Shown here piece by piece: positions 26,510-64,000 of a DNA stretch of 64,000 bases (position 1 is the first letter of the stretch; every line of letters begins with the position of its first letter). The translations under genes and the position numbers were made by a program. The notes beneath the pieces are model-generated. The model was not told the DNA's origin. It was given only the letters and a program-made list of their open reading frames with translations, and ran no database searches. This stretch comes from Ilex aquifolium (taxonomy: Eukaryota > Streptophyta > Magnoliopsida > Aquifoliales > Aquifoliaceae), in the NCBI GenBank assembly GCA_951799425.1, contig OX637391.1:23174551-23238550 (forward strand), read 5' to 3'.

Positions 26510-26511
26510 GA

Positions 26512-27764: not shown

Positions 27765-30557
27765 TGTGAAACCCCAAAAAATTTGAACTATTCACAAATG
27801 GGCAAAACAATAACTTGCCACTATGAACGGGTTGCGAACCTGAATTTTTCTAGAGCTCGGATGACGAAACGGACTTCGCCGTTAAATTCGTCTCGCGAAA
27901 TCTAGTGACCATGTAAAATTTCATCAAATTTCGAAATAGTCGGATTTTTCACGTTTTACGAGACAGTCGGGTCTCGGGTGACCCCAAAAACAAAATTTTG
28001 GACAAAATGTGAGAAAATTGAAAATAATTTAATTAGAGTTCATAGAAAATATTTTGAACTTAAATCGGAGCGAAATTTAATCGTTTTGGGATTAAAACGG
28101 ACCCGGAACTAAAAGGGACGTGTGGCCAATTGTGGGCCAAGTATTCTATAATTATAAATAGGGTCAAATTTGGAGATATTTCAGCAGAAATATCCCCAAG
28201 GTCAGCTGGTCTCACACGTTGGAGAGAAAAGAGAGAGAAAAAGGGTTTCTTCAAGCTTTCTCCGGCAACCGTCGCTCGGATTCCGTCGAGCTAGAAGAGA
28301 GAGTTGCTCTACGCGACGAAGGCTACGTGTGGGTACCAAAAACAACAACTTTCACCGAAGGTGAACGGACGCGGGTGTACAAAAATCAAGATTCGAGTTG
28401 AGTTTCGGGTCTTCGGAGCTTCCTACGGGATTTCTCACGCTATAAGAGGTAGGGGTTCTCCTACTTGGGTTGATTTCTTACCTAGAATGCCTATGATTAT
28501 GGCCTGGTATATATATAGATATGTATACATATTTATATGTATATAGTTATGGAATAATGAAGAAAATGGGTAGATTGTTAGAAAAATTACACTTGCCCTT
28601 TTTGTGGAATTTAGGTAAAATAATTTTATCCTAAATTGTTATGTAGAAATTGTCTATTGAAATTTCTTGAATTATATGAAAGTTGGGCATGATATGTGCT
28701 ACCATAATTGTTTGCCTTGAATGTGTTCAACAAAATGCCTAAGTTTGTGGAAATGGTTATTTTAATAAAATTGAAATAACATACTTGAAATTGTGATAAA
28801 GTTAAGTTATATGTTTATGATATGAGTTACATGAAAATTTGTGATTGTTGATATATGATTTTAATATATATTGGCATGGTGAAAGATTGTGAGAATTACA
28901 TGCTCATGATGTAAATTGTCATGAGATTTGATGAAATGTGTGAGATTAGTTCATATGACATTAATTATATATGAACATGATATACAAGTGACAATGGTTC
29001 ATTGCATTGCATATGTACGGGAACATCGCATACATGGACATTGTGTCATAGGGATGTTGTGCATGGGTGTTTATACCACAATCTATGTGGTATTAAATGT
29101 ATGTGGACATGGGCATCACATTCATGGGATGTTAGCATGGGTGTGGGTGTGTTTGTGCATGGGTATTGTACCACAAGCTATGTGGTATTATGAGAGTCTA
29201 ATATGGAGATAAATTGCTCATTGGCATTCATGACATATTGGGCATAAGGTGATGTCATATTCATGGGAAACTTGCATGAGTGTGGGGGGGGTAGTTGCAT
29301 ATATCAATCATCATGCTTGGTGGTTGGTGGATGGGCTCGGGAAAGTTGGATTGATTATTCAACTGAGTCGCATGGTTGCATGAAAAAGAAGAAAAAGATT
29401 GGGTCGGGGTTAGCAAGAAGGGGCAAGACTACCTCTCGGGTGCAAGGCCCGGTGTTTCGGATACGCACTTCCGTTGGTATAAGAGCCCATAAAGTGTGTT
29501 GGTGTACGCGGCACCGTTGGTGGAAAGAGTCCATAAATCCCGTGTCGGTTGGGTTCCGTTGGTGGAAGTCCATAAACGCCCACCCCAAAGAAAGACCCAG
29601 AGATTTTCTTAAATTAGTTATTGGGTGAGTAATACCAATGGCGGGGGCTTGAGAAGTCCGGTTTTTATACTAATGGCATTGCATGGGGGAAAGGAGCCGG
29701 GAAGGGCTCGGGTTGAGTACATGAGTTACATCTCATTCATGGGGCTTAGGTAGCCCGGTTTTGCATACATGACAATAGCATGTAAAGGGAGTCGTGGTGG
29801 ACTCGGGTTGGATGCACGTGAGTGAGGCACATCTCATCTCATGGCATGACATAATAATATTTAATCATTCAATTGCATAATTATTGATGGAATGGTTATG
29901 GATTTTATGGTATGTTGCATGTGAACATTTCATATGCATATAGGTTGAGGAGTAGCCTTTGTAGGAAACACTCTACTGGGCGTTGGCTCACCCTATAAGG
30001 GAAACATTTCAGGTGCGCATCATTCGCGGGAGGGAGGTTCTCATTTGGGGCCACAAAGTTGAAAAAGCCAAAATGTGGCTTTTATGGTTAAATTGTATAA
30101 CTTTTATATAAATTCCAAATAATTTGGATGTGTACATATATGGAATTGTATGAAATGGATTTTTCATGGACTTTGTATAATGTAGGAATTTCATTATGCA
30201 TATTTGGGATGAATTTGGAAGTGATTTGGATGGGTTTGAAATGTAAAACACTTGTGATATTTGCATGTTTTGATATAAGTATGGATAATTGGACCCGGTG
30301 TGGCCAATGTTTACTTATAAATGGACCCGGTGAGGTCATTTTTTTATATTGGGTCTCGGATGGGTCATGTGAAGTTAAATTGCATAGGTTGGGTTTTGAG
30401 TAGAGCTCACTGTACGAAGGAGACTCTGCCCAAATTTTGTTAAGTTATGGACCCCGGTAAATGGGGCATAACAGTGTGATATCGAGTTACTCGGTATCTA
30501 AGGGTGTTCTGCGGGTTGATGGGTAATCAACGGATCCCCAGATTTTGGGGTGTCACA
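27765..30557 (+). repeat. 3' LTR of the Del-like element
   Basis: Nearly identical to 23718-26509. Differences are concentrated in the first 250 bp (about nine seen by eye), with sparse substitutions and a 1-bp length change in a G run near 29287 beyond that. Confidence 0.92.
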
Positions 30558-31513
30558 GAACCACTCTCACTTTTGTGCCATAGTTGGTAATAAGAGTGAC
30601 AGTGTTTCAACTATTCCTCGGGGAATGAATTTTTGTATTTTATTTTCGATTGTAATTGGATTATATCATTCCTTTTGCTCGCCTATAGCAATGAGGCGTG
30701 AGTAGTCCGTTTATACTCTTCGGTAAATGGTGAATGCATGTGTAATACTGTTTACGTTAGGGAAATGTCAATGTTTTATTTATGCGTTAATGTTTATACC
30801 TCCCTTATTTGATAGATGGTTATATTTATAATATGCTCATGGTTATGAACACCGAGCAGAGCTTAATGTTATATATCATACTATCTATAATTATTACGCA
30901 CTTTATGCATAATACATTGATGTACGTAGTTGGGCTTTATGTAATAGTCGGGAGACTGATTATAAACGGGTTAAATCTCGTCATAGTCAATGCTTTTGAT
31001 TCAATGCATAAGCCGGAACTCCGTCTTTTTTGAATCATCAACCTGCCGATTGAATAGATTGAGTAAACCTTTTGAATGGTTCACCTTCTATTTTACTGAG
31101 GTTATTTGATTGTTGCATGGTACATAGACATTCAGCTAACCTAATCAGTTGCTGTGATATGATTTGGTTATACATCAGACCTATCGGTTAGCTTTCTAGT
31201 AAAATGAGGGTTAATTGTTGTAAGGTGGCATTTTCATAAATAAAAAGTATAAAACATGTTGGATCCTCGCACTCAAGAGTACCTTTTTTATCATTGTGTT
31301 TTAAAGTTTTAGTTAAGTGTTTGTTTGACAATTCTAAGCTCACACCACAAGTTATTTCGTTGCACACTACGCACACGCCAATTTCATTGTTTCTGCTTTG
31401 AATACCGACAGTTAGCTCCCTGTGGGTTCGACCTCGGACTTAAACCGAGAAATATTACAATTTGACCAGTTATACTTGGGTGTATGACATAAATCAGGTC
31501 AGGTCAAACTTTT

Positions 31514-44497: not shown

Positions 44498-45800
44498 TGA
44501 TGGGCCTCCACCATACTGTCCTCGAAGTAGCCTCAGGATCTCATTCTGATTCTCCTCATTGCTAGCCATCCTCTGATCTAACTGGGTGATGCCAGTCTCC
44601 AATCCTAATAGAATCTAGTGGTCAGTCCTGTCATCAACAGTAATATAAGGCTGCTCTTCTTGTTGCTGAGGCTCTTCTGGTTGCTGAAAGTGTGCACCTC
44701 TTGGGAATGGATCTGCTTGTGGTGCTGGTGGTGCTTCCTGCTGCTCCTCTAGCTTCCTTCCATGGCTATTTCTTTGCGAGGTTTTTTCCAATGGTGCCAA
44801 ATGCTCCACTGTTGGCCATGTGGGATCTGCAATGACTCATTTCTCCCTGCACAACTCAAATACTAACACAACCAATGAGAGTGGGGGCTTCTTAACCTTA
44901 TCAATCACCATCATTTGGTCCATTATCAATGTTGGAAAATCAATGGTGTGTCCCATTCCGAAGGCATACATAAAATAGGCTCTCTCAGTATAAATTTGGT
45001 TTTTTTGGGAATAAGGCAACAGATTGTTTACAATTATCAAATTCAGGATTTTATACTTATCGGTTAAGTTACCTTGCTTTATGTACTTATTCGGCCTACC
45101 CCAAACATATTCTAGATTCCTAGTCAACTCAATCCCAATGACAATTATATCAGGTAATGTGGAATAGGGATATTGTGGGTTCTAATATCTTAGGATCGGA
45201 TTCAAAAAATTAGCAATGTTAGTCGATGTAACTTGAAACACAACTCCCCTAACATAGACACGAAATTGTCTTGGCCCGGTTTCTTTTGCATTACTATAAA
45301 ATTCTCGGACCAAGCATTCATATGCAGGACCTACCAATTTCACATAGTTAAGCCAACCGCGTGTAGCCAAATTTTGCCTAACCCCTATTGGTTCAAAATC
45401 TTCATATATAATAGGTCTCTCAACAATAATAGTCTTGGAATAAAAATAACTGTGAGATCCTGGAATTCCACATCGGTTAGGGAGAGGAAAGTTGCTGGGC
45501 TTATAAGTAAGCCCCTCGCCTTACATGGCATAAGGCCTTTTCCTAGGGGTACTAGGAGGAACAAAACCGTGAGGGCTAGTGGGCCCAAAGCGGACAATAT
45601 TATGTCATGTGGAGGGTGGGGTGTTACAATAACTATCATATCAGACTTGCTGATCAATATTTTTGAACATCGCAGCGTCGAATACATTCTATCCCTAGGG
45701 TTGTTCTTGCTGCTGCAGGGGTGCCTCAGGCAGTGAAGAGGCTCCTCGCCTTGCTCGGCTTGACGAAGCTCTTGTTCATGTTCTTGAATCCATGGATTCT
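44498..45800 (-). pseudogene. E2 last ORF, 'putative plant transposon protein' family
   Basis: On the minus strand, recognisable coding runs from about 45700 to 44498. N-terminal block MFKNIDQQV then IIVERPIIYEDFEPIGV; then LATRGWLNYVKLVG; then LVREFYSNAKETG and YVRGVVFQVTSTNIANFL; then WGRPNKYIK, NNLLPYSQKNQIYTERAYFM and a C-terminal Pro/Gln-rich, acidic tail. This is the layout of the Pfam family called putative plant transposon protein, common next to plant gypsy elements; its biochemical role is not established. Lesions: stop near 45690, TRIM insertion 45451-45628, stop near 45180, TGA near 44835, stop near 44612. Confidence 0.75.
45451..45628 (+). mobile_element. TRIM-like solo LTR, 178 bp
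   Basis: It runs from TGTGAGATCC to GGGGTGTTACA with target duplication ATAAC at 45446-45450 and 45629-45633. It includes CCACATCGGTTAGGGAGAGG, a TATA-like CTTATAAG and AAAGCGGACAATATTATG, text typical of small terminal-repeat retrotransposons in flowering plants. It splits the E2 last ORF. The ORF 45385-45687 spans it by chance. Confidence 0.85.
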
Positions 45801-46234: not shown

Positions 46235-46689
46235 CATAATTATTTTTAATCAGAATCTTCTAAATTATGGACATTAGTGAACCAATGAATCTCTTGTCGC
46301 ATATATCATGAAAGCATGGGACTAGAATAAGATGACGTTTCAGGGTAATCCTTACTCTGCCCATACTTAATCCAATTAAGACGATCTAATGCTCGACCTG
46401 AAATTGGTTCGGCACACTAATTATATTCTCTCATATGCATTAAACGATCGCACTTTACACAACCACCGATTCGATTTGCTCGTCGGCGTTTGGAAAATGA
46501 ACTTTTTCCGCACAAAAGTTTTGCTTGACTTTCAAGAATTTCTAATTTTCGAACAACCTTTGCTTTTGATATGATCAAAGAATGTATATCTTTTGGAAAA
46601 GTTCGCAGCCCACCCAAACTGAACCAAAAAAATTTCTCATTCATTTTTGAAAATTTTTGAAAATGACTCACTATGCGGTTCTTTAACAT
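46235..46689 (-). pseudogene. CRP-like small basic Cys/His protein of E2, with a nonsense mutation
   Basis: The minus-strand frame from 46689 gives an N-terminal extension, then FFWFSLGGLRTFPKDIHSLI, a basic linker, LCGKSSFSKRRRANRIGG and C-x2-C-x4-H. A TAG at 46417-46419 replaces the Gln codon that E1 has just before the last Cys of its finger. The frame continues after it with CAEPISGRALDRLNWI and YGQSKDYPET, matching E1 closely, so the stop is recent decay. A second stop lies about 35 codons later. It sits between the E2 integrase end and the E2 last ORF, as in E1. Confidence 0.75.
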
Positions 46690-46749
46690 TTGCTAGTCAC
46701 GAAGACGAATATTGATTGCTTCCGGTTACAAAGACGAATATGGATTTTT

Positions 46750-46966: not shown

Positions 46967-47097
46967 TCACATTTTGAACAAATCATCATGATATGGCTTA
47001 AGCCATTTACCATTCACTTTGAAATCATTTCCAGTTAATGGATTCTCAATTTCAATTGCCCCATATTCAAAAACTTGTTTAACAATGGAAGGGCATG
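46967..47097 (-). pseudogene. C-terminal end of E2 integrase
   Basis: The minus-strand frame reads SIVKQVFEYGAIEIENP, then NDFKVNGKWLKPYHDD and a stop. This corresponds to [19 protein letters not shown] and NNFTVNG-RLKPFLEDF of E1. It is cut at 47097 by the family A LTR. Confidence 0.85.
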
Positions 47098-48832
47098 TGC
47101 TTGATTCATTCCGTCGACCCTAATTTCCGAACATGAACCCTTAATGTGTATATGGCTTATGTGTGTGGGTGAGTATCACTCTCACTCGGGTTCGATGCAA
47201 GAAATGGGGTAAACGGGTGTGTGAAAGAAATGTGTGTGTGTGTGAACAAAAGTACTCCCCAAGCGCAGAGAGACTTTCGAGTGTCGTGTTTTACTTGGAA
47301 ATCGTATTCCAAGGTCATCTCCTCAGGGAAGGAGGTGAATTGTTTTGAAGGTGATTTTGGTGAAAGAGGAAAAGTGTAAAAATCTTTGATGTTTGAGTTT
47401 GGTGATTACTGTTCTTGATGAAAATTAAATAGAAACAAGTGTTGGCTAATCCGAAGAGGTCATTCCAATGGAAATGCCAAATCAACTCAAGACCTTCCTC
47501 CAATGGTGCCTAGATGTTTGATTAATTTGTAGGAAGCGAGGGACTAAAATGGAGGTGAGAATTCAAGCATAACCCATGACAAGTCTACGGTGTATCAAGA
47601 ACTCACAACCACATCCACACTCAATCTAGTCAAACCAAATCATCGTACACTACGAGGAGGAATGAAAAAGAGTTGATTTAGCATACCCAAGAGGAATTCT
47701 TCCTTGGATTAGCCAACTTAAAGCTTAGTTACTCATATTTACTGCAAGAACATTAATGAAGTAAAGAGACATTGTGAAGAAATGAAGATTGGAACTTAAA
47801 TTAATACAAGAAAACATAAACTACAGAAAATGGCATTTTATACCCATTTCAAGAGCTTGAGACGAAAACTTAAATACAACAATGGTAGATTCTAAGATAC
47901 TCAACTAAACTTGCAATGTACTTGAAGTAAATGACATTAAAGACAATAAATGAAGCTTACAAGAGTATTCAAGAAGATTACAAGTGAAATGGATGGAAGA
48001 AATGCAAAAATCTAAGCTTTCTCTCACTAAAACTATATCTTCTTCCTAGAGCTTCCCTCTCTATAATGCAATACCATCTGAATAATCTTTCATGAATGAT
48101 GCATTTTCATCCATGGAGCTCTCTCTAGGTGAGTGACAGGCTTCCCATCCATAGGGGGATGACTTGATGGCTTGGGCAGGCTAGGATAAGCCTAGCCTGC
48201 AACTCCCTTCACTTGCCTCTTCTCTCTCTTCCTCATTAATGCTTGAGCCTCCAAAGTATAAGCAAAGGTGTGGGGGAGGCATGTAGATGTGTAAGGGATA
48301 TCAGGAGACAAGTGGGAGAAGCATAGGTGGGGCCCCCAAATGGCAGAACCCAAATGGCAAAACTTTAGTTGCAGGCTGTCTGGGCAATCTGGGCAAAACC
48401 TTCCGGAAGGTTTGTGCATGAACAGTTCAAACAGCAGTCCAGTAAGCAAAACCTTCCGAAAGGTCGATGCAAACCTTCCAGAAGGTTCATTCCAGTAAAC
48501 AAAACCTTCCAAAAGGTTTTGGCACTGAATAGGCAGATCAAGTGCAAACCTTCCGGAAAGTTTATGGCCAAACCTTCCGGAAGGTTTTCATCCAAATTAC
48601 ATTTTTCTTGGTTTCTTCACCCTCCAATCCTTCCTTTAAGCTATCCCCTCATCTTCATTGACTTTAAACATTACGATGGGAGCTTACTCAAGCCTTTTAC
48701 AACATTTTCACCTACATTCACACAAAACTTCATTAAAGAGAAGATTAAACACAATTCTCCCCAAATTCACAACAAAAGCAAGTACAAAGGGGCATAATAA
48801 CATACAATATATGCAATGTTTTGTGCTAATCA
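47098..48832 (-). mobile_element. LTR A4, 3' LTR of a family A element
   Basis: The minus strand starts TGATTAGCACAAAACATTGC at 48832 and ends at 47098 (plus strand TGCTTGATTCATTCC). A polypurine tract adjoins it at 48833, and the 5-bp flanks GCATG and CAGCC differ, so it is a 3' LTR and not a solo LTR. It contains the U5 landmark and an ACCTTCCGGAAGGT array. Confidence 0.85.
48395..48600. promoter_or_regulatory. ACCTTCCGGAAGGT palindrome array in A4
   Basis: About seven sites, intact or with one or two changes, lie between 48395 and 48595. The clearest pair is centred at 48554.5 and 48578.5 (24 bp apart). Confidence 0.75.
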
Positions 48833-52406: not shown

Positions 52407-54345
52407 TGATTAGTACTTAAAGTTGACATATTATTATGACATTTTAAGACTAATTGTACTTTAATGGAGTTTAAGTGATGTCATTTCAGGCCCTAAACTG
52501 AACAAGGACCCAAGAACAACAAGTACCACACTTGGATGCAGTACCAGTACATTAGAGCCCAAAATTGGAGAAGTTTGGAGCACAGCCAGAACGTTCGAAC
52601 GCCAACTCACGTTCGAACGTCCACAATACACTGTAGCAGACTCAAATGCTGAAGAGAAGGCGTGTTGCAGTTAGGAAAGAAGACTGGAGCTCTGAAGTAC
52701 TTGAGTGTCACATTCGAACGCCAACTCACGTTCGAACGTGCACTTGAGTTGATGGAAGACCAGACCACTGCAGAGAGTTGGAACTGCATTTCACAGGAGA
52801 CCAACAGATCACTCGAGTGAAAGGGGTCAGAACAAATCTGGCGTTCGAACGCCCTCAATGCAAAAACAGAAGAAACGTTCGAACGCCCTCAGTGCAAAAA
52901 CAGAAAGAACGTTCGAACGCCAACTCACGTTCGAACGTCATTCACAGACTGGCAGCAGAGTTGTTGACTGTTCACTTGGACTTGGGCGGCAAACACTATT
53001 CTTTCACCCCCCCCTTTCTCGTCCTCTTGCCTATAAATACTCCCCTTGTTGGAGAGCTAAAAAAAGAGCATAGTAGGAAGTAGAATAGTGATGGAGGCTT
53101 AGACTCCCACTCTCATTGTAGTTAGTTCATTTTCCTTATGAAGTCTTTATTTTAGAGATTAGTTTGGCTTTAGCCCAACATCTCTTGCTTGTTATAACAG
53201 TAGTTTTATGCTTATGCTTATGTTTATGCTTTCATTTCTCATGCATAGAAGAGAAATAGCTCACATCTTGGTTGAGGAAGCAACCCTCCAATTCTTGGTT
53301 GAGGAAGCCACCCTCCAAATGTGACTAGCTTTCTTCTACTTTTATTGTTCATGCATTTCACTTCCATTGCTTGAGCTTCCTTCTTTCTTAGAAGAGTTAA
53401 ACTCTTCCACTTTTCTAGAGCTTTATTAAAGTCGTAAAGGGTGGAACGTGATTCACCCATTCTTTGTGGAAGATTAGCTCCGCGTTTGTTGTTACTTTAT
53501 CTTTTAAAGTTCTCCACTTGGAGGGATGAGCATCACTCACTTTTCTAGCTTTACCCAAGCCATGAAGAGTGAGTAGTTTCTCATTCACTCTTTAGTGAGA
53601 GGAGAAGGGCATGTATAAGTTATCCGGGAATCACATTTGTGCAATGTTCTTTTATGCTTAACGTTTATTTCTCCTTGTTACCGGATGATTGATTGCATCT
53701 AGCAAAGCTAAGGTACTTTGTATAATTGTGAGCTCTTTCTATGACATGGATGACTCCTGCATAGAAAGACTCATCAGTTCAAGGCAAGTACCCCGGCTAG
53801 ATCCTCATGACTACCCTTCAATCTCCCCCCTTATTGTACTTTATTTAAAGAATGGACTATTAATATCATGGTTGGATGTCTTGTAGAAACACTTGCTTGT
53901 TTGTAGACGGGTTAAGTCTCGGCACAGACAATTCTTGTAAACTTCTAGAAAGACATCGGAATCATGTTCTTAATTCTCACAATCCATCTTTATCTTCCGA
54001 TTAACTTGCTGTTGACATGGGAGTTAATTGAGTTATCAAGCACAATTATGACAAACCGGATAACTAACTACATGTCCAGATCCTTGCACTAAAGAGTGAC
54101 TCTTTTTAATTAGCATTTATCTCCTATTTTGTTAAGAAAATCGTCCTGGAAAGAATTTTATATTCTATCCAGCAAAACCCATATCTCACAGCAAATCTAA
54201 AAGGTTACAATCAAAAGGTCTCTACCACTGCTTGCCTTAGAAATATCAACAAAAGTTCCCTGTGGATTCGACTCCGGACTCAAACTGGATTATTACTACA
54301 GCTTGACCGCCTGCACTTGGGTGTACACATTGGATCAAGCCATCA
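52407..54345 (+). repeat. 5' LTR of E1 (about 1939 bp)
   Basis: It starts TGATTAGTACTTAAAG and ends near ...CAAGCCATCA, 6 bp before the PBS. U3 holds the GTTCGAAC array, then a TATA box. The U5 landmarks are ACATGTCCAGATCC, GATTCGACTCCGGACT and GCACTTGGGTGTACAC. The left edge is set by resemblance of its start to the family A start, since the 3' LTR is not available for comparison. Confidence 0.75.
52588..53039 (+). promoter_or_regulatory. E1 LTR promoter: eight TTCGAA palindromes and a TATA box
   Basis: ACGTTCGAACGT-type sites are centred at 52596.5/52614.5, 52715.5/52733.5 and 52914.5/52932.5, each pair exactly 18 bp apart, plus single sites near 52846 and 52878. TATAAATA is at 53032-53039, about 100 bp after the last site. 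Transcription probably starts near 53065. Confidence 0.8.
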
Positions 54346-54351
54346 AGTTTT

Positions 54352-54369
54352 TGGCGCCGTTGCCGGGGA
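54352..54369 (+). other. Primer-binding site complementary to tRNA-Asp
   Basis: TGGCGCCGTTGCCGGGGA is the perfect complement of the 3' end of plant tRNA-Asp (with CCA). This primer is characteristic of Athila/Tat elements. Confidence 0.93.
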
Positions 54370-54462: not shown

Positions 54463-56829
54463 ATGACTGAGGGCACTCCTCACTTCCAAAATTTGCCGGC
54501 AGAATCGTGTGAGTCCGTGAATCAGCCTGAACCTAATTCACCTAGATCAGTAGCAGACTCTTGTGAGGGTAGTATGGCAAATAATGAAAGAAATGGAGAA
54601 GTCCCTATGACAGAGGAGGAAGTCCCTAACATCCAAACTTTGCGGGATTAATTGAATCCCACAAGAAATAGTGTCCTCTCTTGTTTTATTTTTCCTGAAA
54701 ATGCTCCCCTCTTTACTGTAAAGCCGGGGACAATGCAGTTATTGCCTGTGTTTCATGGATTGGATGCAGAAAATCCATATCTGCATATAAAAGATTTCGA
54801 AGAAGTGTGTGGAACATTTCAAGACAATTCTGAATTGGCCAAAATGAAATTGTTTTCTTTCTCTTTGAGGGATAGAGCCAAACAATGGTTGAATTCTTTA
54901 AAGGCTTTTTCAATACCCAATTGGCAAGCATTGCAAAATGAATTTTTTAGAAAGTTTTTTCCTTTACATCGCACAAATGCATTAAAAAGGCAAATCATGA
55001 ATTTTGCGGTCAAAGAAGGAGAAACTTTTTATCAAAGTTGTGAGAGATTCAAAGATCTACTCCAATCTTGCCCACATCATGCTTTTGAAAATTGGACTTT
55101 GGTAGGATTTTTCTATGACTCCTTACCCTCTAGACTACGTCAGTTTGTCGAAATGATGGCCCAAGGAGAATTCATGGGAAAAAGTCCGGAGGAGGCATTC
55201 AATTTCTTCGACACCATATCTGACAGTTCTCAGATGTGGGACTCAGCCTCCCCTACCACTGTAGAAGCCAGACCATCTAATTCCCAAGGAGGAAAATATG
55301 TCTTGAGAGAGGATGATGACTTGAGAGCAAAAATGTCCACATTATCTCGAAAGCTCGAAGCTTTAGAGATGAAGAAAGTCCATCAAGTTGATGTTAGCCC
55401 TTCCACTGAGCAAGTGTGTGAAATCTGTGCGCTAACAGGACACCCTACTGGGGAGTGTCCCACCATCCCAGCATTCAAAGAAGCCTTGTTAGAACAAACA
55501 CATGCAGTTTCCAACTTCAACAAGCCCTACTCCAACCCATATTCTGAAACATACAATCCAGGGTGGCGAAATCACCCTAACTTCAGTTGGAAGAACACAC
55601 AACCAATACCCATGAACCAACAACAAGGGCCATACCCACCACCTCAAGGACCTCTTGCATATCAACCATACCAACCACCACAAAAGAGGAACCTTGAGGA
55701 CACATTAAATCAGTTCATGCAAAGCCAAATGAATTATAACAATAATTCCACACAGGCTTTCACTGATTTCAAAACCCAAACCACTCAATCCTTTGAGGAT
55801 CTTAAAAGCCACATCCAAAAGTTGACTCAATCCATGGTCACACACGAAAAGGGAAAGTTTCCTGCCCAACCAAAGCAACCACAAGGCCAATTCCATGTAG
55901 GGAACCCTTCAACAACAGGAAACACCCAAGACCAAGCCCAAGTTGTCACGACACTAAGAAGTGGCAAAGTGATTGACAAAACAATCAGAGACATACTCAT
56001 TCCCAAGCCAAGACCTGAGTCAAGCCCAGCCAACCCATCATCTGAACCTGAACCAATTGAGAAAGACCCTGAGCCTGTGATTGAACAAGAGTCAGAACAT
56101 TCTGAGAAAAAAGAACCTTCGTATCCCGTTCCGACTCCATTTCCTCATCGACTCAGAACCAAACAAAAAGTGAAAAATCAGCCTGAAATTTACGAGCTTT
56201 TTAAGCAAGTAAATATCAACATCCCACTTCTGGATGCAATCAAACAAGTCCCGCCTTATGCCAAGTTTCTAAAAGACTTGTGCACAGTCAAGAGAAGCCA
56301 GAAAGTCCAAAAAAGAGCTTTTCTAACGGAACAAGCTAGTGCTTTTCTCCAACAGAAAACCCTTCCAAAATACAAAGACCCAGGGTGTCCGACTGTCTCA
56401 TGTATCATTGGAAACTTCAGAATTGAACAAGCCTTGTTAGACCTTGGAGCCAGCGTTAATCTGCTACCCTACTCTGTCTATCAACAGTTGGGTTTGGGTG
56501 AACTTAAACCCACTTGTGTCACACTCCAGTTGGATGACAGATCTGTCAAAACCCCCAGAGGGATTGTTGAAGATGTGCTTGTCCAAGTAGATAGTTTTGT
56601 CTTCCCTGTTGACTTCATTGTTCTGGATACTCAACCAGCAATAAATTCGGAGAACCAAATTCCCGTCATTCTTGGTCGACCATTCCTAGCAACTTCCAAT
56701 GCTTTAATCAATTGCAGGAATGGAGTCATGAAATTAACTTTTGGGAATATGACTCTCGAAATGAACATTTTCAATATTGCTAAACATCCAGAAGAGGAAA
56801 AGGAAGAAAGGGAAGTAAACTCCATATAA
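54463..56829 (+). pseudogene. E1 gag and protease, one internal stop
   Basis: ATG 54463 starts an acidic leader of 62 codons, interrupted by TAA at 54649-54651 and continuing in frame to a TAA at 56827-56829. The family E copy has TAT (Tyr) at the first stop. Gag core: FHGLDAENPYLHIKDFEEVC, then RDRAKQWLNSLKAFSIPNWQ and LKRQIMNFAVKEGETFYQSC. A zinc knuckle C-x2-C-x4-H-x4-C (CEICALTGHPTGEC) is intact near 55420-55461. A Gln/Pro-rich linker follows. The protease has DLGASVNLLP at about 56440 and ILGRPFLAT at about 56668. Gag packages the RNA and the protease cleaves the polyprotein. Only two stops break an otherwise long frame. Confidence 0.93.
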
Positions 56830-56832
56830 TCT

Positions 56833-58881
56833 TTGATACAGGAACATCTGGATGATACATTCTGTGAGGATCCTGCTGAATCATCTCTGTTAGAACTCAT
56901 CTCATCAGAAATAACAGATAATGACCCAAATCCACCAAGTGACCCTACTCATACTGTTGAGACCTGGGCACTCAAATTCGAAGAAATTTCACCAAGTGGC
57001 ACAAAGCCAGTCTCATCAAGTGTTAGCCCACCAAAGCCTGAATTGAAACCTCTCCCATCTGACCTCAAATATGCATTCTTAGGAGAGAATGAGTCATACC
57101 CAGTGGTAATTTCATCTAAACTCACAGACTTGCAAGAGTCTAAATTGCTTGAAGTTCTTCGAAGTCATAAAAGTACCATTGGATGGACCATCGCTGACTT
57201 GAAAGGTATAAGCCCGTTAATCTGCAATCATGCCATATACCTTGAAGAGGACTCAAAACCCTCTCGTCAAATGCAGCGACGACTGAACCCTCACATGAAG
57301 GAAGTTGTGAGAATTGAAGTACTCAAACTCTTAGATGCAGGGATAATCTTCCCTATCTCAGATAGTAAATGGGTCAGTCCAACCCAAGTTGTGCCAAAAA
57401 AATCTGGGGTCACAGTGGTAAAAAATGATGCAAATGAACTAGTGCCAACTCGAGTCGTCACAGGATGGCGAATGTGCATTGATTATCGAAAACTCAATTT
57501 GGTCACTAGAAAAGATCATTTTCCTCTCCTGTTTCTTGACCAAGTCCTAGAGAGAATTGCAGGCCATGCATTTTACTGTTTCCTGGATGGATATTCAGGG
57601 TATAACCAAATTGAGATAGCCCTAGATGATCAGGAGAAGACAACCTTCACATGCCCCTTTGGCACCTTTGCATTCAAAAGGATGCCATTTGGACTTTGTA
57701 ACGCTCCTGCAACATTCCAAAGATGTATGCTAAGCTTGTTCAGTGATATGGTTGAAAAATTTTTGGAAGTATTTATGGATGACTTCTCTGTCTATGGTGA
57801 TTCCTTCGATTTGTGTTTAACCAATCTAGAGAAAGTACTGATCAGGTGTAAGGAAGTCAACCTAGTGCTCAATTGGGAAAAATGCCATTTTATGGTAACA
57901 CAGGGCATTGTTCTTGGTCACATCGTGTCTTCTGAAGGCATGAAAGTTGACAAGGCAAAAATTGATTTGATTGGAAATTTGCCTGCTCCTAAGACTGTAA
58001 AGGATGTTCGATCATTCCTAGGACATGCAGGGTTCTACAGGAGATTCATAAAAGATTTCAGTACCATAGCAAAACCAATGTGCCACCTCCTAAGTCAGGA
58101 TGTAATATTTGATTGGAATAAAGCATGCCAAAAAGCCTTTGACAAGCTAAAAGACATGTTAATTTCTGCACCAATAATGCAACCTCCTGACTGGAATCTT
58201 CCTTTTGAACTAATGTGTGATGCAAATGATTTTGTTGTAGGTGCTGTATTGGGACAAAGAAAAGATAAGAAACCCCATGTGATTTACTATGCAAGCAAAA
58301 CTTTGAATTATTCAACAACTGAGAAAGAATTGCTTGCTGTAGTTTTTGCACTGGAAAAATTCCGTTCTTATCTTGTTGGTTCTTCTGTTACTGTATTCAC
58401 TGACCATGCAGCTCTAAAATTTTTGCTCACAAAGAAGGACGCCAAACCAAGACTCTTGAGATGGATACTTCTGCTCCAAGAGTTTGATCTTGTCATTAAG
58501 GACAAAAAAGGCGTCGAGAATGTGGTGGCATATCATCTGTCCAGACTGACCTATGAATTTCATGAGGATGGACTGCCAATCAATGAAAAATTCCCCGATG
58601 AACAACTGTTCATGATTGATAAGACACCATGGTATGCAGACATTGCTAACTTTCTTGCTACTGATACACTCCCTCCATCTTTTACCATGTTGGACAAAAA
58701 GAAATTTCTGAGGGAGGTTCGTAACTTCTTTTGGGAGGATCCTTACGTATTCAAGTACTGTAAAGATCAAATCATAAGACGTTGCATCCCTGCTCATGAA
58801 AGTAGCCAGGTAATAACATTTTGTCATTCTGAAGCATGCAGTGGCCACTTTTCATCAAGAAAAACAGCTGCAAAAATATAG
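56833..58881 (+). pseudogene. E1 reverse transcriptase and RNase H
   Basis: Same frame as gag-protease, separated only by the TAA at 56827. RT motifs in order: [31 protein letters not shown], the catalytic [24 protein letters not shown], and VFMDDF, the YxDD-type active site. RNase [13 protein letters not shown] (Asp), [19 protein letters not shown] (Glu) and [10 protein letters not shown] (Asp). The fourth acidic residue, expected in the VVADHLSR motif, is Tyr here (GAT to TAT), so RNase H is probably inactive. The N-terminal part of integrase follows (H-x3-H region [15 protein letters not shown]). The frame ends at TAG TAG (58879-58884). Confidence 0.92.
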
Positions 58882-59843
58882 TAGTGTGGATTTTACTGGC
58901 CTACACTTTCAAAGATGTCCATGCCTTTTGTTTAACTTGTGATAGGTGTCAAAGGTTGGGAAACATTTCTAAAAGAAATATGATGCCCTTAAACCCCATT
59001 CTGGTAATTGAAAATTTTGACTGTTGGGGCATCGATTTTATGGGACCATTTCCCCATTCCTTTGGCTATCTATACATTTTAGTGGCTGTAGACTATGTAT
59101 CCAAATGGGTTGAAGCAATTCCATGCCGAAACAATGATCACAAAACAGTGATCAAATTTTTAAAAGAAAATATTTTTTCCCGGTTTGGAATTCCGAAATC
59201 AATCATAAGCGATGGGGGTGCTCATTTTTGCAATCGTCCCTTCTTGAATTTAATGAAAAAATACTTGATTTTTCACAAAATTTCAACCCCTTATCACCCA
59301 CAGACCAGTGGACAAGCTGAGTTAACTAATCGGGAGATCAAATTAATTTTGGAAAAAACGGTGAATCCAGATCGCAAAGATTGGTCATTAAGACTAACTG
59401 ATGCGATCTGGGCATACCGAACTGCTTTTAAAACAATTTTGGGCATGTCTCCTTATCGATTAGTCTATGGAAAGCCATGTCACTTGCCTGTGGAATTGGA
59501 ACATAGGGCATACTGGGCCATTAAAGCAATGAATTTTGACTTAGACAAGGCTGGGCTAACAAGGAAACTTCAGATAAATGAATTGGAGGAATTGAGAAAT
59601 GAAGCATATGAAAATGCTAAGATTGCTAAAATCAGGATGAAAATCTTTCATGACAAACACATTGTGCGGAAATATTTTGAGCCATCTCAAAAAGTCTTGC
59701 TATTCAACTCAAGACTCCGCCTCTTCCCTGGTAAGTTAAAATCAAGATGGGTTGGGCCTTACATTGTGAAAAAGGTGTTTGAACACGGAGCAGTTGAAGT
59801 GGAAAACCCAGCAAACGGTAATAATTTTACTGTTAATGGTTAG
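58882..59843 (+). pseudogene. E1 integrase
   Basis: After two adjacent TAG codons (58879-58884) the original frame continues for a few codons (GFYWPTL) and then loses one base near 58910. The rest is read in the frame that ends at 59843. The zinc-binding CLTCDRC, the catalytic core [10 protein letters not shown] (Asp), [10 protein letters not shown] (Asp) and [11 protein letters not shown] (Glu) are present, with exactly 35 residues between the second Asp and the Glu. The C-terminal domain ends [19 protein letters not shown] and a TAG where E2 has a sense codon before RLKPFLEDF. The catalytic triad is intact despite the upstream breaks. It joins the cDNA to the host chromosome. Confidence 0.93.
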
Positions 59844-60362
59844 AGGTTAAAACCATTTTTGGAGGATTTTGTTAGAAATGTGGAAACCATTCTTCTAATG
59901 GAACCAGAGTACTCCTCCGAAATTCGCGCTTGCCGACACTCCAGTGGATCGGATCAGGAAATATCTACTCCAACCCGACCCCCTGGGGCGCCGTTATAAG
60001 GCGCCCACTTGTTCCCCAGCCGCCGCAGTTGGCCCCCCCCCCTTTTTCTTCTTCTTCTTCTTTTTCTTTTCTTCTTCTTCCTTCTGTGAGTCTTCGAGTC
60101 ACTGTTACCCGAGAAAACACCCATGACCACACACTCCACAAACACGATATTTTGCTTCCTATTTAGCATTTTAATCTTATATTTGCTCACGGGTGTTCTT
60201 CTCTTGTTCGCACTCACACATAAGGATTTTCAGCCTACCCGAAATCCAAATCTGTGCACAGATGAGTAATTTTTGGTGTTTTTTTTTATTTGTAGGTCTC
60301 AGAGGTGAACAGATCTCTACCATTCAACCTCGTCTCCACACTCCATGAACCGGTAAATTCGA
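59844..60362 (+). other. Non-coding region after integrase
   Basis: The integrase tail (LMEPEYSSEIRAC) reads on past the stop to about 59935. A C-rich run and CTT-rich stretch follow at 60030-60080. ORFs here are low-complexity and unconvincing. Confidence 0.5.
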
Positions 60363-60400
60363 AACATTGGAGACAATGTTCAGTTTAGGTTGGGGGGTAT
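60363..60400 (+). other. Internal polypurine-like tract of E1
   Basis: ACATTGGAGACAATGTTCAG followed by TTTAGGTTGGGGGGTATG. It is conserved with E2 (46750-46787, minus strand) at the same place, between integrase and the CRP-like ORF, and it is not beside an LTR. It could prime extra plus-strand synthesis. Confidence 0.65.
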
Positions 60401-60589
60401 GATCAGTTCATCAGTTCATTTTCGTTCATAATTTTCGCAAATTTTTTCACTTTCTTGTTATTATTGTCATAGTTGATCATGTTTGAACATTGATTGTATA
60501 AATTGATTATGCTTATGAATCAGCTTCAATCGTCTTTGTGACTGGCAGACGTTAAAGAACCAGATAGTGAGTCTTAAAATTTAGCAATC

Positions 60590-61000
60590 ATGGATGTAAA
60601 TCTTTTTTGGTTTAGCCTAGGAATCCTACGTACTTTTCCACCTGATATACATACCATGATCATGAGAAAAGCAAGATTAGTAAGGAAGGCTGAAATCAAA
60701 GAAAAACAAGCGAAACCCCTCTGTGGCAGAAGTAGCTTTGCCAAACGCCGTCGTGCAAAAAGGCTTGGTGCCTGTAAACAGTGTGGCAAATACTTTCACG
60801 AAAAAAGGTACAACCAGTGTTCTGAACCAATTTCCGGTCGCGCACTTGATCGATTAGACTGGATAGTGAATGGGCTGAGTAAGGATTACCCTGATACGCC
60901 ATGCTATTCCGGTACTGTCCTTAACCGATTTGTGAGAGAGGAAGTTGGGAGAGTTACTGGTTGTCCATTTTACACAGACACAGAGGGAGACTCAAATTAG
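60590..61000 (+). CDS. Small basic Cys/His protein resembling carlavirus-type cysteine-rich nucleic-acid-binding proteins
   Basis: 136 residues, intact from ATG 60590 to the stop ending at 61000. Seen: hydrophobic start LFWFSLGILRTFPPDIHTMI; basic helix-like segment MRKARLVRKAEIKEKQAK; block CGRSSFAKRRRAKRLG (residues 45-60), a likely nuclear localisation signal; finger C62-x2-C65-x4-H70-x6-C77; conserved EPISGRALDRLDWI; tail with VREEVGRVTG. A divergent copy with 'I/V', 'K/R' and 'D/E' exchanges lies at the same place in E2, which argues for a selected protein. Known of the family: carlavirus-type cysteine-rich proteins have a P-x-D-I region, a GRS-x-x-A-basic-A block and a CxxC finger, bind nucleic acids and can suppress silencing. 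The likeness is my recognition, not a search; convergence is possible. The E1 start may be shorter than in E2, which has 15 extra N-terminal codons. Codon use looks like its neighbours. Confidence 0.6.
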   Translation: MDVNLFWFSLGILRTFPPDIHTMIMRKARLVRKAEIKEKQAKPLCGRSSFAKRRRAKRLGACKQCGKYFHEKRYNQCSEPISGRALDRLDWIVNGLSKDYPDTPCYSGTVLNRFVREEVGRVTGCPFYTDTEGDSN

Positions 61001-61266
61001 ATAATCTTCTGTAGGAAAAGTATACTTTTGTTGGGGGAGTGAATGCCAAAGGTCCGAATTTGTTGTAAAAAGTGTAAAAATCTTTTTGTATAAATTTCTT
61101 TTTGACTGAAATGAAAATATGGGCCGAGTAAGGAATGCCCCAAAATACCAACCTGAAGCGTGGGTAGGGGTTCATCCTGAGACGCCTTAGTTTTTGAATT
61201 AAATTTGTGTGTTTTGTCTTCTTTGATTGTATATAGTGCAATAGAGAAAAATTTTAATTTTTGGTT
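61001..61266 (+). other. Non-coding region between the two extra ORFs
   Basis: AT-rich, no domain. ORFs on the minus strand (60954-61241, 60997-61269) are unsupported. Confidence 0.4.
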
Positions 61267-61554: not shown

Positions 61555-61768
61555 CCTGGTTCGTCATTTTCAGCCAAAATCCCCAAATTTTTCAAAACCC
61601 TGAATTCATTCTCACTCCACAGACCTCAACTTGCCCTCATTCCCCAAGAATACCCAAATTCGACCTTCCCTAACTCCTCCCCACATCAAAATCATCAATC
61701 CCAGACCTAAAACCATAAGTTCCAGAACTTTTCAGGACCCTCGCAAATCAAACCCACGTTCGAACGCC

Positions 61769-62238
61769 ATGCCAAGGATGAAACTCCCTGCCAGGCGTGC
61801 TCCACCAGTGAATCAAGACCCAAACATGGTAGAAGAAGTGATTGAAGAAAGGGGAGGAAGGCAAAGGACAAAGACATATGACAGAACCAAATTTCCTAAT
61901 GCCTTAAAGGCTGAGAGGTATGAGAATTTTTACCATAAGCATGCTATTGTCTGTGAGAGAGATGTTGTGATTGATGATTTTGATGGGATTGGTATAAAGT
62001 AGGAGATGGAGAGGAGGGAGTGGGTATGGTATTTGAGGAATGGTGGAGACGCCGTTGTTGACTTGGTGCGGGAGTTTTACTCCAACGCTGAGATCATCAA
62101 CGGCGCAATCCGGACATATGTTAGGGGTACCCACATTGACGTGGACGAAGCATATATTGTAGAAATAAGGGAAGAAATACCTCGGGTCCCAAATCCCGTT
62201 TATCCCCCAAGGAAGAATGTGGCGATGAATGAGGTGGG
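61769..62238 (+). pseudogene. E1 last ORF, 'putative plant transposon protein' family, truncated
   Basis: ATG 61769 (MPRMKLPARRAPPVNQD) is chosen because it lies after the second TATA box. Blocks: TYDRTKFPNALKAERYENFY, HAIVCERDVVIDDFDGIG, a TAG at 62000-62002, then EMERREWVWYLRN, LVREFYSNAEIINGAI, TYVRGTHIDVDEAYIVEI. These match E2 (ERPIIYEDF, REFYSNA, YVRG) and, more weakly, the A element. It is cut at 62238 by LTR A6, so the second half is lost. The role of this family is unknown. Its position is where some plant gypsy elements carry an env-like ORF; no signal peptide or membrane segment is seen here. Confidence 0.75.
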
Positions 62239-64000
62239 TGATTGATCAAAAACAATCCTATTCCTAACCCTTTAACTACTATCCTTCAAATGATGCAATG
62301 TATGAGCGGAAGGAAGGATTTCTCCCCCTTTGGGATAGTGTGAAAAGAAAGGGCAATAGGAAAGGGAAATGGGATGATGTAGATATGGAATGTGTATGCA
62401 CAAAAATGCTCCCCAATCGCAAGGAGACTTTCGTGAGTTGTGTTTTACTTGGAAAGTATTCCAAGGTCGATTCCACAGGGAAGGAAGTGAGCAAATGTGA
62501 AAGTGATTTAGTGCAAAAGAAAGTGTAAAATTCTTGTTGTTGGAAATTGTTTGGTGAAGTGTGTGTTGGTGAAATTAGAATGAGAAAACAAGTGTTGGCA
62601 ATTCCAAGAGATCCCTCCAATGGGTATACTATCTCAACTCAAAACACTCCTCCGATTGAGCAAGAATGAACGGTTGATTCACGGGAAGCCGATGATGATG
62701 ATGGTGAGTGCCTAAGCATAAACCGTGACTAGGCCTACGGGTTATCAAAGACTCACCAAATCATCCACCTTCAATCCGGTCAAACCGAACCATGGGACTC
62801 TAAAGGAAGGGTGTAGAAAGAGTTGAAATGGTATACCCCAATGAGGATTCCCCTTGGTCTTGCCAACAAAAAGTGCTTAGCTACTCATACTTGAACTAGA
62901 CATGATAATGTAAAGGTAATGCATTCTAAGGCTATGGAGCTTTTAAGTAACTAAGTGCAAGAAATCCTAGACTAGAAGTGAATGAAATGAAAAGCTATTT
63001 TATATCTATGAACAAGAATAATCTTGAAAGCATTAATGGTAGAACATAAATGGGAGCATTCAACTAACCAAACATGAAGGGAAAACAACATTTATGGCAT
63101 TCAATGAACTACTAAGATTCTTACTCAAGATTACAAGACAAATGCAGTAGGAGAAATGGTAAAATCGTCACTTTCTCTCTCTAAAAACCACTATTCATCC
63201 TCTTCTCTGCCTAGAGCTCCTCTCTCTAAAACTATATCATACAATACATCATCAATGAATACCCCCCCAAGGAGACTCTTGCTTTCCCCCCAAAACGTGC
63301 CTGGAGAGAGAGGGAGGTCTACAGAGTTGATCTCCATCACTAGGGGTGCAGCAACATGGGTTGGACAGGGGGTGAGGCAGAGCTGTCTGCCCACCCAGCT
63401 TCCTTCTTCTTCTCTCTCTTCATTAATTATCAAGACTCATCCAAATCAATGCAGGCGTGAGGGAGGCTCCAGGATGTGTAAGGGATGTCAGGAAGCATGT
63501 AGGAGAAGTGCATGTGGGACCCTCCAAGCCGCAAAGTTGAGTTACAGGCTGTCTGGAGAAAAGTGCAAAAACCTTCCGGAAGGTCGACATACACCTACCG
63601 GAAGGTCGCTGAAAGAACAGTTAAATGAAAAGAATCAAATGCAAGAACTTCCGGAAGGTCGACATCAGTAGCAAAAATCTTCCGGAAGGTTCATTCCAGT
63701 AGCCAAAACCTTCCGGAAGGTTCATTCCAGAAAACAAAACCTTCCGGAAGATTTTGGCAGTCAAAAAGAAACCCAAGGCAAAACCTTCCGGAAGGTCCAT
63801 TCCAGTAGACAAGTCCTTCCGGAAGGTTTTACTCCAGTAGCTAGAATCTTCCGGAAGGTTCATTCCAGAAAACAAAACCTTCCGGAAGATTTTGGCAGTC
63901 AAAAAGAAACCCAAGGCAAAACCTTCCGGAAGGTCCATTCCAGTAGACAAGTCCTTCCGGAAAGTTTTACTCCAGTAGCTAAAATCTTCTGGAAGGTTCA
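62239..64000 (-). mobile_element. LTR A6 (family A), running off the right edge
   Basis: The plus-strand left end TGATTGATCAAAAACAATCC corresponds to the family A 3' end. The U5 landmark (minus strand) is near 62440-62490, and the U3 palindrome array starts at 63568. The LTR start lies beyond 64000, so it is unknown whether this is a solo LTR or part of an element. ORFs inside it follow the repeated array. Confidence 0.85.
63568..64000. repeat. Dense ACCTTCCGGAAGGT array in A6, with a 138-bp tandem duplication
   Basis: At least a dozen TTCCGGAA sites, the first pair centred at 63577.5 and 63599.5 (22 bp apart). A block beginning TTCATTCCAGAAAACAAAAC at 63721 repeats at 63859, period 138 bp, with few differences. 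Confidence 0.85.

Follow-up and report, generated by a model that had tools for sequence, protein, structure and literature searches.

What is a small protein with the look of a plant RNA virus gene doing inside a retrotransposon of holly? The window analysed here, a 64,000-nucleotide stretch of Ilex aquifolium DNA (assembly GCA_951799425.1, contig OX637391.1, positions 23,174,551 to 23,238,550), contains a long terminal repeat (LTR) retrotransposon, E1, and remnants of a related one, E2, both of which carry between integrase and the last open reading frame (ORF) a gene that we call NABP, for nucleic-acid-binding protein. The gene is homologous to flexivirus proteins, lies inside LTR elements, is present in many copies, is under purifying selection and has been duplicated in tandem. 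We consider it probable, if well short of certain, that a flexivirus-type RNA-binding protein was captured by an LTR element and kept working there, most likely against RNA silencing, the suppressor step being the weakest part of this explanation.

As an earlier note had read from the letters of this DNA, the E1 gene (60590-61000, forward strand) is intact, its 136 codons running open from an ATG and encoding FPPDIHTMI, GRSSFAKRRRAKRLG and a C62-x2-C65-x4-H70-x6-C77 finger. The protein is basic (26 Lys and Arg versus 15 Asp and Glu, pI 9.7), and beside the finger stands an Arg-rich stretch (K52 R53 R54 R55 A K R) resembling a nuclear localization signal (NLS). The likeness to the cysteine-rich proteins (CRPs) of plant viruses, which the note had recognised by eye, is significant at the profile level: hmmscan against Pfam assigns the E1 protein to PF05515 Viral_NABP with E 1.9e-10 (41.5 bits, curated cut-off 23) and to PF01623 Carla_C4 with E 2.9e-5 (24.4 bits, curated cut-off 20.9). 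Three further NABP genes likewise exceed both cut-offs (42.3, 36.9 and 49.4 bits for PF05515; 26.7, 22.7 and 26.1 bits for PF01623), and the PF05515 score of E1 surpasses that of the 90-residue vitivirus p10 (30.4 bits). Six of six shuffles of the NABP residues matched no Pfam family at E<=1. Since the curated cut-offs are passed and the shuffles are negative, a chance match is rejected. A ribosomal-type zinc protein could be suspected from weak phmmer matches to eL43 and eL37 (best E 0.0078) and from the JGI label L37AE/L43A of the homologue P0005, but the matches to the viral Pfam families are much stronger and the Pfam result includes no ribosomal family; with phmmer matches that are weak only, ribosomal identity is rejected too, and either form of spurious resemblance appears extremely unlikely.

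To which viruses is the protein related? The earlier note had called it carlavirus-type, and here the family was right and the genus too narrow: the Viral_NABP profile is the stronger of the two, and the best-scoring named viral proteins are those of pruneviruses, trichoviruses and vitiviruses, with carlavirus ones lower. These were reached with a profile, A2, made of three homologues from a single-sequence search and four proteins without known origin, and scoring covered the 7991 candidates with the most words in common. Among these, the matches include Glyptostrobus pensilis prunevirus (5e-28), apricot vein clearing associated virus (1.6e-20), peach mosaic virus (2.5e-11), Grapevine virus A (GVA; 1e-10), Grapevine virus M (9e-10), garlic virus D and shallot virus X (both 2e-8), carrot vitivirus 1 (7e-7) and elderberry carlavirus A (1.1e-5); that of potato virus H (0.016) is not significant. 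Pairwise, NABP is 36% identical over 131 columns to the Glyptostrobus pensilis prunevirus protein and 47% over 64 to GVA p10. A structural comparison with viral CRPs, proposed in the note, points the same way: the sole BFVD match at E<=0.001 to our modest-confidence fold model is the silencing suppressor of that prunevirus (1.3e-5), and eight of the ten best matches are named, seven being flexivirus nucleic-acid-binding proteins or suppressors and one a betaflexivirus protein named HP. A previous structure model had been set aside as too poor. The fold search of the PDB gave no match at E<=0.001, and two scans of the viral contigs of IMG/VR found no relative. Judged by its sequence, NABP belongs to the flexivirus NABP family, for which "carlavirus-type" is one branch too specific.

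In an unrooted and weak tree, E1 and seven close homologues form one shallow group (97/98), and two carlavirus rows group with the pruneviruses, apart from the element group (96/97), on long branches; with such long viral branches the tree does not single out a nearest virus genus. The traffic could also have run the other way, or the ancestry be a shared plant one, the domain having arisen in plant genomes or elements and been acquired by flexiviruses. The domain does occur in plant genomic proteins, the tree has no root, and the finger resembles a retroelement knuckle; against this, the viral proteins span several genera and the element group is shallow, an argument that is weak because viral genes evolve fast. 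We regard this reversal as unlikely, though not negligibly so. Eleven close homologues from ena or jgi sources are 63-85% identical (P0001-P0010 and P0012). The same viral domains recur in a second, distant family of about 182 residues, with annotated members in Populus, Xanthoceras, Rhamnella and Orobanche; this family includes P0112, P0114, P0116, P0093 and P0046, and one of its clusters has 566 members. With the poplar protein P0112 as query, the best 150 of 2938 candidates in the holly genome reached 31-38% identity only, several coinciding with places already in the E1-NABP list, and no closer member of this family was seen among them. A third group with the same domain, of 118-133 residues, comprises P0016, P0018, P0020, P0024, P0121, P0122 and P0125, of which at least one looks degenerate.

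How firmly does the gene belong to the element? A protein search of the 800-Mb host genome with E1 NABP gave 4102 first-look candidates, which are not to be equated with copies; the best 150 are 93-100% identical, and 135 of them are stop-free. The query P0008, 69% identical to E1 NABP, led to another subfamily, its best 150 matches being 88-92% identical to P0008 and all but one (149/150) stop-free; given the 69% identity the two lists are expected to be separate, although their overlap was not compared place by place. The first 75 residues of E2 yielded best 150 matches of 64-100% identity. As all of these lists hold best matches only, the stop-free fractions do not describe the family as a whole. 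Loci were fetched from the first list as the eight best (L001-L008, L001 being E1 itself) and 20 hand-chosen for spread, together with six stop-free entries at length, and from the P0008 list as the 12 best and 20 hand-chosen (L057-L059 are the same places as L025-L027).

The gene order of the fetched loci, together with two filled lists of 150, bears out the expectation that the gene would recur many times in the interval from integrase to the last ORF. In the LTR elements of the host genome NABP sits between integrase and a Transposase_32-type ORF, and the carrier is thus no plus-strand RNA virus genome. An LTR pair surrounds NABP in five of the six loci fetched at length (the 3' LTR of C5 being partial) and was not found around NABP at the sixth, C17; 5-bp target duplications, read by eye, flank the LTRs in all five. 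The three pairs that aligned over their full length in one piece are 97.5% (C1), 99.0% (C3) and 97.8% (C13) identical, corresponding to 0.4-1.0 million years at an assumed rate of 1.3e-8. The ORF after NABP, ORF3, is open over 340-385 residues in four of the five LTR-paired copies, and the one tested proved to be Transposase_32. Integrase was found within 1.5-2.1 kb upstream in 22 of 28 E1-type loci and was not seen in that interval in the other six (L007, L008, L040, L047, L050 and L055). C1 and C17 lack the stretch corresponding to 58634-60294 of E1, integrase included, with the same end points, and their NABP is still open; these integrase-loss copies were noted together with loci L007, L008, L013 and L015. 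Capture of a longer viral 3' end, for example with a coat protein, was considered and rejected: three ORFs flanking NABP contain no Pfam domain, nor do two antisense ORFs.

Has the gene been kept for its product? Between E1 and E2, the ratio of nonsynonymous to synonymous substitution rates (dN/dS, Nei-Gojobori) is 0.23 in frame, and 0.95 and 1.54 in the wrong frames; between six groups of copies it is 0.14-0.37. Six representative pairs gave 0.13-0.40 in frame, with bootstrap intervals all ending below 0.68, and 0.93-2.16 in the wrong frames. Some of these values are rough because synonymous sites are near saturation (dS up to 1.5), and close-range ratios within groups (3.8 for one g3 pair, 0.26-0.53 in four groups) were not relied on. 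The first genes of the tandem pairs described below, sampled by linkage and hence independently of their own similarity, gave 0.21 (g4) and 0.26 (g3) against E1-type genes. The four ligands of the CCHC finger, a predicted zinc binder, are present in 78 of 78 aligned rows, and all eight finger and basic positions are intact in 69. The rows represent 74 gene copies and 70 distinct DNA rows; L009-L024, which include one further 84% copy (L013), had been excluded beforehand as repeats of other loci, and a gene had to span at least 110 of 120 positions, which removed, among others, the truncated first genes at L025-L036 and at L071 as well as the shortened one at L062. Beyond finger and basic stretch, G46, D87, I92, G95 and K98 are invariant in a 12-row alignment. 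These codon comparisons show purifying selection and indicate that NABP is retained as a working gene of the element. The ratio below 1 anticipated in the earlier note was found, and neither outcome that it had named as adverse, no similarity to viral CRPs or a ratio near 1 over many copies, was seen. A passive passenger, in the sense of an unused piece of endogenous virus that happened to be amplified, would fit the stops frequent in E2-type copies (within 75 residues in 22 of the first 50 listed of 150), but not the between-group ratios with out-of-frame controls near or above 1, the invariant zinc ligands, the ratios of the linkage-sampled first genes, or the duplication of the gene together with its upstream block. 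On dN/dS and zinc-ligand conservation a neutral passenger is rejected, and we consider any version of it very improbable.

The duplication is seen in the P0008-like subfamily, where a second NABP (P0005-like or E1-like) lies about 1.35 kb upstream on the same strand in 27 of 29 distinct loci, the exceptions being L067 and L072. By set, the pair occurs in 12 of 12 loci of L025-L036, in which only the end of the first gene falls inside the locus, and in 18 of 20 of L057-L076, three places being common to both. At the tandem locus L078 an integrase 94% identical to that of E1 directly precedes the first NABP; at L077 some 2.8 kb separate an integrase of 93% identity from the P0008-like gene downstream of it, and the first gene is outside the fetched stretch. 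No second NABP was seen downstream in six E1-type loci reaching 7.8-8.3 kb in that direction. A tandem pair may exist in another host, too, in the form of P0005 and P0033. Each of these reports a 2941-base JGI contig, which is not proved to be the same one.

A conserved noncoding block of 47 bp precedes the gene. Scanning both strands in full with up to 14 mismatches locates it in the window only before the NABP genes of E1 and E2, and none of 200 shuffled controls matched. In L057-L076 it precedes both genes in 17 loci (6-9 mismatches before the first, 4-6 before the second), and in L067, L071 and L072 the single gene start within the fetched stretch; in the six long loci all its occurrences lie ahead of NABP genes, one per locus except for two in L013, where a neighbouring copy is partly included. 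Wherever the sequence upstream of an NABP gene was scanned, the block was there. The block is a possible splice acceptor or other expression signal. Polypurine-tract-like tracts stand on both sides of NABP in E1, and the downstream one has a counterpart, likewise 442 nt from the ATG, in five of five other copies examined; one may speculate that they helped capture or duplication through strand transfer.

The features of the window are collected in the table. E1 shows the gag-protease-reverse transcriptase-RNase H-integrase order of a Ty3/gypsy element, preceded by the 5' LTR and by what we take to be a primer-binding site, and followed by NABP and ORF3. It is incomplete: a stop and a change of frame break up gag-pol, ORF3 is in two pieces, and E1 stays colinear with other copies only up to 62238, or 62127 for one of them. 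The second ORF3 piece matches Transposase_32 (PF20167) with E 2.3e-7, below the family cut-off; ORF3 of copy L018 does so with E 1.6e-24. The NABP-bearing elements resemble the Athila lineage, a name that we assume for E1 from the likeness of its integrase and primer site. E2 repeats the order of E1, with an integrase remnant, NABP and an ORF3-like remnant, and its NABP is related over 132 residues (E 9e-48 in a search of the window). The earlier note had placed the copy correctly between its neighbours; the single nonsense change that it had counted proved to be two stops. Elsewhere in the window, a 2.8-kb direct repeat, 98% identical (23718-26511 and 27765-30559), is possibly an LTR pair or a recent duplication, and 63628-64000, close to the window end, is taken up by tandem repeat units of about 136-138 bp.

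Features of E1, E2 and their NABP genes in the window
Feature	Position	Strand	Remarks
NABP gene of E1	60590..61000	+	intact 136-residue ORF, pI 9.7, predicted CCHC zinc finger and Arg-rich stretch
47-bp conserved noncoding block	60524..60570	+	ends 19 nt before NABP ATG; AG in acceptor-like setting
Polypurine-tract-like G-rich tract upstream of NABP	60384..60395	+	
Second polypurine-tract-like tract, just past NABP	61030..61041	+	
5' LTR of E1 (TGATTAG...CCATCA)	52407..54345	+	ends set by eye, aligned to other copies
Primer-binding-site-like sequence	54352..54369	+	adjoins 5' LTR; presumed
gag (PF03732) with CCHC knuckle, aspartic protease (PF13650)	54652..56829	+	
Reverse transcriptase and RNase H (PF00078, PF17917)	56833..58881	+	stop between gag and reverse transcriptase
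Integrase (PF00665)	58836..59843	+	frame differs from reverse transcriptase
ORF3	61631..62245	+	broken: 61631-62002 and 62006-62245
E2 copy of NABP	46249..46644	-	55% identical to E1; two in-frame stops
47-bp block before E2 NABP	46668..46714	-	10 mismatches
Integrase C-terminal remnant upstream of E2 NABP	47009..47119	-	
Transposase_32-region remnant downstream of E2 NABP	45167..45370	-	41% identity to second ORF3 piece of E1

What scenario would account for these observations? We infer that an ancestral Athila-like Ty3/gypsy element captured its cysteine-rich NABP gene from a flexuous RNA virus of plants, one of the Betaflexiviridae or related to them. Placed between integrase and the 3' ORF, the gene would have been retained in function across several subfamilies and doubled in one. 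It would be expressed, perhaps from a spliced message via the 47-bp block. In the plant cell its product would most likely bind small RNAs or the RNA of the element and weaken the silencing directed at the element, in the way that p10 helps a vitivirus. Suppression is suggested because relatives such as p10 are suppressors: according to passages of one source, the CRPs of viti-, carla-, beny-, allexi- and mandariviruses carry, besides an Arg-rich NLS, a finger of CCCC or CCHC type, and CRPs usually suppress silencing (PMC11213338), and excerpts of two others list GVA p10 as a suppressor acting on small interfering RNA (PMC3712444) and the CRPs of two garlic allexiviruses as suppressors (PMC12389679). 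A fuller version of this scenario, to which we would give slightly less than an even chance, is that the lineage made the captured suppressor a core gene, doubled it in an apparently younger branch and reached hundreds, perhaps thousands, of copies by disarming RNA silencing, with integrase-less derivatives keeping the suppressor.

Other uses of a captured gene have to be weighed against suppression. NABP could be a nucleic-acid chaperone or packaging factor, in effect an extra nucleocapsid, since a CCHC finger beside a basic stretch resembles a nucleocapsid knuckle and the Pfam family is named for nucleic-acid binding. A pure nucleocapsid role is less needed, however, because the Gag of the element has a CCHC knuckle of its own (C256-x2-C-x4-H-x4-C), and conservation beyond finger and basic stretch also speaks against it; we hold such a role to be rather unlikely. 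NABP could alternatively act in the nucleus, regulating host or element transcription. One carlavirus protein is reportedly a nuclear transcription regulator, and the KRRRAKR stretch is NLS-like. In passages of PMC11213338, the Arg-rich stretches of CRPs are tied to nucleocytoplasmic distribution. Such a nuclear role, too, seems to us improbable.

Several observations weigh against the capture of a viral suppressor. The single-sequence database search returned close homologues and one distant one and no named viral protein; named viruses were reached only through profile A2 with its four proteins of undescribed origin, and the fold model, of modest confidence (predicted local distance difference test 61, predicted template modelling score 0.31), was built on the same profile. 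The direction from virus to element is not proved, because the tree is unrooted and its viral branches are long, and the 182-residue plant family may point to repeated captures or to an older source in plants. NABP is under weaker constraint than integrase, whose dN/dS is 0.086 in two of six comparisons (tandem loci) and 0.341 in one close comparison, the remaining ones being saturated in two cases (L067) or without synonymous change in one. E2-type copies are decaying. Finally, the choice of copies by their best match as protein leans towards open frames, and each of the six long loci comes from a stop-free entry.

That selection has preserved, in an abundant LTR retrotransposon of a plant, a small gene whose viral family includes known suppressors bears on retrotransposon-encoded anti-silencing proteins: it suggests that transposable elements may take over the counter-defences of viruses, documents gene sharing between RNA viruses and plant retrotransposons, and offers a possible reason for the abundance of this lineage. 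To our knowledge, the plant transposons for which anti-silencing is known are DNA transposons. A report of an NABP-type gene in an LTR element was not found in the open-access literature, of which parts of the texts were covered, subscription papers being outside the scope. Like the NABPs and CRPs of flexiviruses (prunevirus, vitivirus p10, trichovirus, allexivirus, carlavirus), the holly protein has a GRSxFAKRRRAKRLG-type block, a single zinc finger and then an I-x-x-G motif; unlike them, it is encoded inside an LTR retrotransposon, in many copies and tandem pairs, and its finger is C-x2-C-x4-H-x6-C. Betaflexivirus sequence has been described in cucumber by Chiba et al. (2011), the gene in the excerpted text being the replicase and not NABP (PMC3136472). 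As described in parts of PMC7264820, Athila and other plant LTR elements share with E1 the arrangement of gag-pol, an extra sense ORF and then the 3' LTR, their extra ORFs being env-like or of unknown origin and none being called a viral RNA-binding protein there. The Ty3/gypsy elements of Phalaenopsis with a 2-ODD/AlkB ORF are likewise plant elements with an extra conserved ORF acting on RNA, albeit a different domain, and the section of that paper on a screen of 121 angiosperm genomes does not have viral NABP among the extra domains it discusses (PMC9289625). The nearest retrotransposon precedent that we found, going by excerpts of two papers, would be the insect long interspersed nuclear elements with an RNA-virus helicase (PMC5563155, PMC6338049): these are non-LTR elements in which the helicase is a polyprotein domain, whereas NABP is a separate small ORF of a plant LTR element, but in both a retrotransposon carries a gene of plus-strand RNA viruses for which a weakening of RNA silencing has been proposed.
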